From Cytobacillus firmus (lineage in GTDB: Bacteria; Bacillota; Bacilli; Bacillales; Cytobacillaceae), in contig NZ_CP098323.1 of NCBI RefSeq assembly GCF_023657595.1, positions 3,744,001 to 3,808,000 of the forward strand: a stretch of 64,000 nt of DNA, read 5' to 3'. Below the pieces are notes generated by a model. The model was not told the origin of the DNA. It did no database searches and worked only from the letters and a program-made list of their open reading frames with translations. Shown piece by piece: positions 6,808-45,722 of the stretch. Positions within the stretch are counted from its first letter, which is position 1, and the number at the start of each line of letters is the position of its first letter. The position numbers and the translations under genes were made by a program.

Positions 6808-6922
6808 TTCATTCGACCTCCTTTTTAGAATTTTCACTTACACTGGTAATTATATCCACGATTATGCAGTTTGTAAACCTTTTTTGATAAATTTTTATTT
6901 TATTTTTTTGTTTTATAAATAC

Positions 6923-7053
6923 AGCCTGTTAATTTCCGCTGCAGGGTGTAGTTTAGTGAGTTGCTCTTCGCTGGGGGCATTTGAAAATGCTGACGCATTT
7001 CCTTCGTGCGGTGTTCGTTATTAAGAAGCAACATGCTTTACGAAAATAGCCAA
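6923..7053. repeat. MITE-like dispersed repeat, copy A (partial, rearranged)
   Basis: The left part reads GTTAATTTCCGCTGCAGG, like the other copies. The right end, read in reverse complement, is GGCTATTTTCGTAAAGC, matching the repeat's terminal sequence. The middle, in reverse complement, contains ACACCGCACGAAGGAAATG and AGCATTTTC, a module found in the opposite orientation inside copy D (36158-36437). The left terminus is missing. It lies beside the yrhC terminator. Confidence 0.65.
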
Positions 7054-9364: not shown

Positions 9365-9502
9365 TAGTCTGTTGATTTCCGCTCCAGGCACGCAGCGAAC
9401 CCGCGGGGAGTCCTGCGAGCCTCCTCGGCTTTGCCTGTGGGGTCTCGCATTCCCTCACTTCACGCAGAAGTCAAGTGCCCACAGCGAGGATCAACTCAGT
9501 GC
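9365..9502 (+). repeat. MITE-like dispersed repeat, copy B (core only)
   Basis: This copy keeps GTTGATTTCCGCTCCAGG, a GC-rich core (GCGGGGAGTCCTGCGAGCC, CTCCTCGGC, GGGGTCTCGC) and the closing ATCAACTCAGT. Both terminal GGCTnTTTTCG sequences are missing. It fills most of the 426-base gap between pbpI and yrrS; I see nothing else convincing in that gap apart from an A/T-rich stretch upstream of yrrS. Confidence 0.75.
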
Positions 9503-17194: not shown

Positions 17195-17233
17195 CACATA
17201 TCCCCCCGTTCCAAAGACCTTAGCTTTGTAAAT

Positions 17234-17454
17234 GGCTCTTTTCGTATAATTTGTTTATTTTCGCCTTTCAATATTGTCCGTTGATTTCCGCTCCAGGCTG
17301 CTCAGCGAACCTCGGGGCAGGCGGTGAGCCTCCTCACCGCTTCGTGTCTGCGGGATCTCACCTGTCCCGCTACTCCCGCTGGAGTCTCGCGCCTGCCGCT
17401 GCAATCAACTCAGTAAATAATATTATAAAAGCAAAAAACTTTGCAAAAACAGCA
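17234..17454 (+). repeat. MITE-like dispersed repeat, copy C, near full length with target duplication
   Basis: A 221-bp element. The left end is GGCTCTTTTCGTATAATTTG; the right end in reverse complement is TGCTGTTTTTGCAAAG. It is flanked by a direct 8-bp repeat TTGTAAAT (17226-17233 and 17455-17462). The core holds GTTGATTTCCGCTCCAGG, GGGGCAGGCGGTGAGCC, CACCTGTCCCGCTACTCCCG, CTGGAGTCTCGCGCCTGCCG and ATCAACTCAGT. It occupies the 485-base gap between mltG and yrzB; the remainder, 17463-17655, is A/T-rich with no gene seen. Confidence 0.85.
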
Positions 17455-17655
17455 TTGTAAATTAACTGCACGTTTTCTTGCCAACTGGCCTAAGAAATTG
17501 TATTTTCTTTTTGTTCCTGAGACATCACGGGCTTATTATACTATATTTTCTTTTGGAAGTCGCAGGATATTACAAAAACCAAAAAGATTCGCCATTTTTT
17601 CCCACATTTTGCACTTTCGGTTTATTCAGCTCCAGCCGAAAAAGAAGCAAATAAA

Positions 17656-36157: not shown

Positions 36158-36437
36158 GGCTCTTTTCGTATTAATTGTTTTTTTTGCATATCCATGTTGT
36201 CCGTTGATTTTTCCGCTCCAGGTTGCTCGCTTTCCGCGGGGCGGGCGGTGAGCCTCCTCGACGCTGCGCGTCGCGGGGTCTCACCTGTCCCGCTACTCCC
36301 GCAGGACTTTGAATAAGCTTCTTTGAGTAGACACCGCACGAAGAAAATGTGATAGCATTTTCGAGGATCTCGCACCTACCGCTCCAATCAACTCAGTAAA
36401 TAAGATGAAAAATGCAGCAAACCTTGCGAAAACAGCC
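36158..36437 (+). repeat. MITE-like dispersed repeat, copy D (longest, about 280 bp)
   Basis: The left end is GGCTCTTTTCGTATTAATTG; the right end in reverse complement is GGCTGTTTTCGCAAGGTTTG. It has the GC-rich core (GGGGCGGGCGGTGAGCCTCC, TCACCTGTCCCGCTACTCCC) plus an extra segment ACACCGCACGAAGAAAATG ... AGCATTTTCGAGG that also occurs in copy A in the opposite orientation. Flanks do not form a clear target duplication. It fills much of the 36023-36522 gap; the rest shows no gene. Confidence 0.82.
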
Positions 36438-36570: not shown

Positions 36571-36762
36571 AAAGAGTCCCAATCGTGCCGTCGCTGTTGA
36601 TGCCCTCGTTTTGAACCCGCACTCAGCAGGTGGGTGTCCTGTTTCCTGCGTTTGTAAGTCCTCATCCATGAGGCATTTACGCTGCTGGAAAACTCCGGAC
36701 TCCCGAAGGAATAATGTTGGTCAAAATTTCAGGTTTTACAACGAACACATCAGGACTCTTTA
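36571..36762 (-). ncRNA. bsrA: 6S RNA (6S-1 / BsrA)
   Basis: Global regulator that binds housekeeping RNA polymerase by mimicking an open promoter. The minus strand starts AAAGAGTCCTGATGTGTTCG and ends GGCACGATTGGGACTCTTT; the ends AAAGAGTCC and GGGACTCTTT close a long rod. The internal ATTCCTTCGGGAGTCCGGAG matches 6S-1. Length (about 192 nt) and position between tcdA (yrvM) and aspS match B. subtilis bsrA. The promoter implies a precursor with a short 5' extension, as known for 6S-1. Confidence 0.92.
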
Positions 36763-40090: not shown

Positions 40091-40425
40091 AAAAACCCCC
40101 GCCTCCTTGTATATTAAATACAAGGGACGAGAGTTTGGTTTTTCCCGTGGTGCCACCCTAGTTGAAGCCTATAAATAGACTTCCTCTTTTACAGTTAACG
40201 CCTGTTAACGTTCAGCTCCTACTAAAGATGAATCCTTTTCAGAGAGAAACCTACGAAGTGTTCTTTCGTTAAATCATCATGTGAGAATGCTTTCAGCCGG
40301 GCGGCATTCTCTCTCTTTTCATGTGGGGTTTAACTACTCTTCTCCATCAATGGTTTATTATCGAAAAGCATGAACGCCTTGGTCGGGCGCTGCAGCTAGA
40401 CATTTAATTGTTTTGTCATTTTATT
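40091..40425 (-). promoter_or_regulatory. T-box riboswitch controlling hisS-aspS
   Basis: Stem I elements AGAAGAGTAG, AGAGAGAGA and GGCTGAAAG are followed by the specifier loop GAAAGAACACTTC, where CAC (40260-40258) is a histidine codon. The antiterminator core AGGGTGGCACCACGGG (about 40159-40144) precedes a terminator built on CCTTGTAT/ATACAAGG ending in T7. It covers most of the 451-base gap upstream of hisS. Confidence 0.93.
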
Positions 40426-45324: not shown

Positions 45325-45579
45325 GGAATCACCTTTATCTCCCTGAATTTTATGCAGTTGCATAATGTAGTAATTTTGAAATTGATAATGAATAACAAGT
45401 TATTAAAAAAATTAATATTGCTACTATTATCGAAAAAAAAAGTGAAGATGTAAAGGGATAGACTGTTATTTTTATGGGAATAACAAAAGTTTTGTCGTTT
45501 TTTGTCCGAATTCCTTTATTGTTTTTCCATAAATGGATTTGGAAACCCTTTAAAAACTATTTTCTAATATAAATTAAAA

Positions 45580-45690
45580 GGCTCTTTTCGTATAAATTAT
45601 TGTTTTTACTTATCAATATTGTCCGTTGATTCCGCTCCAATCAGCTCAGCATATCTAATACAAAAAACAACAAACTTGAGAAAAACAGCC
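45580..45690 (+). repeat. MITE-like dispersed repeat, copy E (short, core deleted) with target duplication
   Basis: A 111-bp copy with left end GGCTCTTTTCGTATAAATTA and right end, in reverse complement, GGCTGTTTTTCTCAAGTTTG. A perfect 8-bp direct repeat AATTAAAA flanks it (45572-45579 and 45691-45698). The GC-rich core is absent: GTTGATTCCGCTCCAATCAG joins the two places where CCGCTCC occurs in the long copies. It sits at the edge of the apt terminator. Confidence 0.85.
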
Positions 45691-45694
45691 AATT

Positions 45695-45722
45695 AAAAAG
45701 AGCCCCATTTCGAATGGCGCTC
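45695..45722 (-). terminator. apt terminator
   Basis: GAGCGCCATT and AATGGGGCTC pair (one mismatch) around a short loop and are followed by T5 on the minus strand; the T tract is shared with the target duplication of repeat copy E. Confidence 0.8.

Follow-up and report, generated by a model that had tools for sequence, protein, structure and literature searches.

Miniature elements with IS1595-type ends in Cytobacillus firmus probably carry an exchangeable hairpin core under strand-specific constraint

RESULTS

A once-mobile MITE lies between yrzB and mltG

In the window, that is, the whole 64,000-nucleotide stretch of Cytobacillus firmus DNA that was analysed, a MITE of 221 bp lies on the + strand at 17234-17454, with yrzB (DUF1292) and mltG as its neighbours. 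The gene order around it we take, from B. subtilis and from the open reading frames, to be alaS-yrzL-ruvX-yrzB-mltG. This focal copy is of the short form, an IS1595-type shell with a core, and TTGTAAAT stands on either side of it in two exact copies (17226-17233 on the left and 17455-17462 on the right, without assigned strand). Its left terminal repeat, GGCTCTTTTCGTATAATTTGTTT (17234-17256, + strand), matches the ends of the complete IS1595 elements L226, L228, and L230, and the right terminal repeat, TGCTGTTTTTGCAAAGTTTTTTG, is inverted (17432-17454, − strand). The structured hairpin core occupies 17280-17409, with its G-rich, apparently constrained strand on the − strand, and was matched by a covariance model with 114 bits (E = 7e-30).

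Genus relatives were compared at the focal locus, with 97-98% identity across the yrzB side. Some genomes of this genus have exact 120-mers in common with a locus of Cytobacillus oceanisediminis 2691, so that the window probably belongs to Cytobacillus. Empty orthologous sites, to which the original prediction of a mobile family had pointed, were seen in three of them (G024, G034, and G005), where a single target 8-mer is found, ATTTCCAA, which reads TTGGAAAT on the window strand. The site was occupied in G025 and G006 too, and G026 retained a deleted remnant. The 8-bp duplications and the empty site in close relatives indicate that the focal copy is a real, once-mobile MITE. Another insertion, apparently of a second shell type, stands beside the yrzB terminator in G014, G015, and G028, and yet another in G016. 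Incidentally, G013 (C8 1471986-1476685) showed two matches to the yrzB-ruvX-yrzL region, 3.7 kb apart in the assembly.

Copies in the window and in the host genome

Five related copies had been proposed for the window. Those at 17234 and 36158 proved to be full elements; the copy at 45580 is coreless, that at 9365 is a core only, and that at 6923 is a very weak remnant. The second full copy (36158-36437, + strand) is of the long form. Its flanking 8-mers, AACCAGAA and AGTCAAAA, form a decayed duplication, alike at 5/8 positions, and its long-form core lies at 36203-36392 on the − strand, with a covariance-model match at 36212-36331. The 45580 copy is a shell-only mini element (45580-45690, + strand) that lost its core between direct repeats CCGCTCCA, and it is flanked twice by AATTAAAA, exactly (45572-45579 and 45691-45698). 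At 9371-9495 (− strand) there is a core without recognizable IS1595 ends (covariance-model match of 85.7 bits, E = 9.9e-22), and the doubtful remnant at 6914-7051 (+ strand) combines a core-like start with a right-end-like ACGAAAATAGCC, at a weak profile match of 16.6 bits (E = 5e-4). Also noticed in the window were a 6S RNA gene (36572-36759, − strand), at a distance of ~135 bp from the 36158 copy, and a T-box leader (40120-40359, − strand).

A first BLAST of the whole host genome yielded 62 matching pieces. A profile search of the fetched regions recovered 49 related copies. The elements measure 110-290 bp, have inverted ends of ~20 bp and contain no transposase gene. They come in three forms: long (~280 bp), with a ~65-bp additional hairpin within the core; short (~220 bp); and mini (~110 bp), in which the core is deleted between the direct repeats. 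The extra hairpin (GAAAATGC..GCATTTTC..TTCGTGCGGTGTT) has a single insertion place in the core, both at 36158-36437 and in most host-genome copies, and it was also observed within second-shell elements (L118 and G014).

Both ends were recognizable in 27 host-genome copies. Their flanking 8-mers were alike at 6.33 of 8 positions, versus 3.6 (0.449 × 8) for shuffled flanks, and the agreement peaked sharply at length 8 and offset 0, with perfect duplications missing at some sites. These flanks, with the exact duplications of the focal and 45580 copies, uphold the 8-bp target duplications of the original prediction and, along with the comparison of ends, bear out its non-autonomous, MITE-like family with imperfect inverted repeats of ~20 bp. 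By eye, about 10 of the 27 insertions have a strong terminator-like hairpin immediately upstream. Around the presumed terminus, G000 showed almost no element copies over 2.25-3.15 Mb, with one core at 2745043.

The ends are those of IS1595 elements

The host genome contains no ISL3 transposase (PF01610) and no IS1595 transposase (PF12762) above cut-off; among 36 genus genomes, PF12762 exceeded the cut-off in 12. As the host is devoid of both enzymes, its MITE copies are probably stranded and immobile. A plasmid search with the coreless mini-shell gave weak matches, one of which (H1) led to an IS1595 element on a plasmid of Niallia sp. Man26 (NZ_CP095745.1, L226). There, an IS1595 transposase gene lies between GGCTGTTTTCGCATAGATTGTTA and GGCTCTTTACGTAAAGTTTGTTG, with ATAAATAA on each side, and the protein scores 180.8 bits against NF033547 (cut-off 75) and also matches PF12762. 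The same element includes a 152-aa passenger ORF (L226 1957-2415, − strand), for which only a sub-threshold DUF4340 match was obtained. In the genus, the complete IS1595 elements L228 and L230 agree with 17-18 of the 18 consensus end positions at both ends and have perfect 8-bp duplications; L235 and L237 agree at 16-17 of 18, with duplications alike at 7/8. A second IS1595 subgroup has ends GGCTCTGTTAAA..TGTTG. None of the complete IS1595 elements that were fetched contained the hairpin core.

Because their ends are common with those of IS1595 elements, the MITE shells appear to be IS1595 derivatives, and an IS1595 enzyme would be what mobilizes them. The elements are short, without transposase, with terminal inverted repeats, a target duplication, an empty site, and an autonomous relative with the same ends, as is characteristic of MITEs. 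Like the IS1595 insertion sequences (ISXO2-like DDE transposases), they have these ends and make 8-bp duplications, as a non-autonomous derivative of an IS1595-coding element should; unlike them, they encode no transposase and contain the hairpin core.

The original prediction had attributed mobilization to an ISL3-family transposase. ISL3-family (PF01610) elements delimited in the family have 8-bp duplications too, and ends starting GG, which would suit an ISL3-family MITE. However, their ends, such as GGGTCTTCGGAATATATAGTGG and GGTTCTTACG..GGTGA, differ from those of the MITEs across the family, no ISL3 locus from the 36 genus genomes showed the MITE ends (GGCTNTTTTCG), and it is IS1595 elements that match these at 17-18 of 18 positions at both ends. 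An ISL3-family element with the same ends was looked for in the genus and the family and was not found. With host genome, genus, and family searched and ends compared, we rejected an ISL3 partner and find this origin hardly credible: the end-sharing elements carry IS1595-family transposases. As a separate observation, a second-shell MITE appears to be interrupted in its right arm by an ISL3 element (L099 ~2345-2372), the end of which abuts ATCAACAATGGCC.

The core is an exchangeable module

The majority of the repeats carry the hairpin, and the GC-rich core, 128-130 nt in length, is a module separate from the ends: it was observed in two kinds of IS1595 shell, one of which holds it in either orientation, and also without a recognizable shell. 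By BLAST, it was found in 166/183 family genomes and 21/24 genera, and many cross-genus alignments stop at, or 1-2 bases from, GTTGATT..AATCAAC. Among 189 contexts sorted with a permissive classifier, the first shell held the core in one orientation in 51 and in the other in 42; the remaining contexts include the second shell and flanks without recognized ends. The second shell, which is present in Sporolactobacillus too, reads 8 bp, GGCTNTGTTAAACTTGCCT, core, ATAGTGCAAAAATCAACAATGACCTTTAACACAGCC, 8 bp. The GTTGATT of the core is the inner part of the terminal repeat of this shell, which suggests that the second shell may have been the original home of the core.

Plasmid matches (17 records with the core) added Priestia, Peribacillus, Paenibacillus, Sporosarcina, and Planococcus, and none was found in phages. 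Covariance model R1 detected the core in 107 of 398 sampled genomes of the class Bacilli, distributed over 34/145 genera. Among distant genera, the flanks of the core vary; IS1595 shells are recognizable in some only, with many cores lacking them, so that other vehicles may exist. Core pairs in opposite orientation, 44-180 bp apart and REPIN-like, were noticed in distant genera (L321 1501-1911, L322 1501-1795, and L330 1501-1945).

Base pairing of the core is conserved with a strand asymmetry

The G-rich strand of the core folds as one long imperfect hairpin, closed by the stem GTTGATT/AATCAAC. In an alignment of 46 cores, mostly <90% alike, 92.1% of the cells pair, and changes on both sides were observed at 22 of 46 pairs (112 cells), whereas slid controls gave 7-13 such pairs (16-25 cells). 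A class-wide alignment, which was fitted to the model and hence leans towards the model structure, exhibited compensatory changes at 34/46 pairs (259 cells), with slid controls giving at most 17 pairs and 40 cells.

On the G-rich strand, G-U exceeded A-C by 61:23 and 26:9, ratios that were reached in 0/200 column shuffles each, and the excess was confined to this strand. An earlier test, on the pairs common to the folds of both strands, had given 61:19 (p = 3e-6, p-values being approximate since the sequences are related). Unpaired columns showed C-to-T change at 9% and G-to-A change at 10%, with no C-to-T excess, and this equality means that mutation bias does not explain the excess of G-U. 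An excess of G-U over A-C on the G-rich strand only points to selection on that strand, more probably in the form of RNA than of single-stranded DNA. G-U pairs make up 2-3% of cells, a rarity with which a DNA hairpin would agree as well. On the evidence of these alignments, we conclude that selection specific to the G-rich strand has maintained base pairing of the core across Bacilli. Covariation supporting one strand is what is expected of a functional RNA, and the remark in the original prediction that the element might carry a structured RNA gains support from its strength and asymmetry. The pattern is like that of long hairpin RNAs in Rfam, yet the core matched no family of Rfam 15 above gathering score. 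An intrinsic terminator was also considered for the core and rejected, since a T-run is absent downstream of it whichever way it is read.

Orientation of the core is biased in some lineages only

With dnaA located, the G-rich strand was seen to run along the replication fork in 36 of the 41 host-genome cores, and in 26 of 27 cores between co-directional genes it coincided with the gene strand. Orientation was also strongly biased at the named loci (68:15). The bias was absent or weak in G047 (18:17), G155 (15:11), G002 (10:8), and the class-wide loci (9:11), and fork-relative orientation was weak in G002 (15:12). The bias thus appears to be lineage-specific, and orientation as a general law was abandoned, given its absence or weakness outside the host genome and the named loci. 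That the transposon ends set the orientation was also dropped, because the same core bias was present in both shell orientations. Unbiased insertion followed by selective loss would fit, since the G047 copies listed are near-consensus and unbiased. G047 also has a long same-strand run of cores at 3.77-4.78 Mb, which disagrees with the arm that a dnaA at 1.6 kb would predict and is possibly an inversion or an assembly artefact.

DISCUSSION

We think it quite probable that IS1595-mobilized MITEs carry an exchangeable hairpin core with a strand-specific constraint of its own, likeliest as RNA. The ordinary part of this system is the IS1595 MITE family; the unusual part is a class-wide, strand-specifically conserved hairpin in several vehicles. 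In the scheme that we propose, IS1595-family transposases would act in trans on the ~23-bp ends GGCTNTTTTC[G/T]NANANNTTGTTG, and cutting and joining at A/T-rich intergenic 8-mers, often a terminator T-tract, would duplicate 8 bp. The 128-130-nt core would ride in the MITEs, as well as in the second IS1595-type shell (GGCTNTGTTAAA ends) and other Bacilli contexts. Transcriptional read-through would produce it as RNA within UTRs and intergenic mRNA, where a host factor may bind or process it, making insertions tolerable or useful. Loss of the transposase from the host genome would then have left its copies where they are. More ambitious, and to our mind evenly balanced between true and false, is the proposition that the core is a previously undescribed element of Bacilli, 128 nt long and found across the class, structured as an RNA or as a hairpin of one DNA strand, which has repeatedly switched transposon vehicle, attains copy numbers of tens and possibly hundreds per genome, and owes its maintenance to a function of its own, not to being a transposon by-product. 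In the literature searched, no description of the hairpin module was found.

The core might instead be selected as folded single-stranded DNA, REP- or attC-like, the substrate of an enzyme of the HUH or tyrosine type, and itself the mobile unit. The low number of G-U pairs, the presence of the core in different shells and in both orientations, and the inverted pairs in L321, L322, and L330 would all agree with this, and strand asymmetry would fit the use of one strand, G-T being the best-tolerated mismatch in DNA. We nonetheless regard it as unlikely: a Y1 transposase, the mark of REP/RAYT or IS200/IS605 systems, was sought in the host genome and not found, and no clean core-only insertion was seen. 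Hairpins are frequent in MITEs and IS ends, and the covariation could accordingly reflect a functionless long palindrome, derived from transposon ends and homogenized by gene conversion. Yet conversion from arm to arm would not spare the purine-rich unpaired blocks, nor maintain an excess of G-U over A-C on a single strand, and the core is conserved across 34 genera, which makes such an origin quite improbable.

An oriented cluster of Chi sites (AGCGG) was also envisaged, since the G-rich strand has ~1.9 AGCGG per core versus 0.08 CCGCT and follows the fork in 36/41 host-genome cores. However, across 53 cores the three AGCGG sites were preserved in no more than 79, 34, and 51%, which is less than for the non-Chi blocks, and fork orientation is weak in G002 (15:12); we ruled out the cluster on site conservation, and consider it very improbable. 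We retain constraint on the G-rich strand as RNA as the preferred reading.

A hairpin present in about one-fourth of sampled Bacilli genomes and absent from Rfam could be missed, as the usual models seem to be without it. If the core acts as RNA, the same structured element would be placed in many UTRs at once, a ready-made rewiring of RNA processing, whereas action as folded DNA would point to an unknown single-strand mobilization system. With the ISL3 guess corrected, the MITE family offers a clean transposon/passenger pair for experiments, and does so in soil bacilli that are not pathogenic.

Among known repeats, bcr1-bcr18 of the Bacillus cereus group are intergenic, 100-400 bp long, high copy, and MITE-like, and for some of them transcription as structured RNAs was predicted or found (PMC3446304, PMC6542083). 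A TTTAT motif has been linked to their mobility (PMC6542083), and a title among the references of PMC2267715 calls bcr1 specific to the B. cereus group. The present family is likewise intergenic, high copy, and MITE-like; what sets it apart from the bcr descriptions are its 8-bp non-TTTAT duplications, its IS1595 ends, and its occurrence in 34 genera of the class sample. Neither TTTAT-linked mobility nor restriction to the B. cereus group applies to it, and the 17 core-bearing plasmid records include none from the B. cereus group. Modular MITE-like repeats are also represented by BOX and RUP in pneumococcus and by NEMIS/Correia in Neisseria. BOX and RUP are also listed in PMC2267715. All are short modular non-coding hairpin elements mobilized in trans, as the family described here appears to be, which differs from them in having one structured module common to at least two transposon shells and to many genera of one class.
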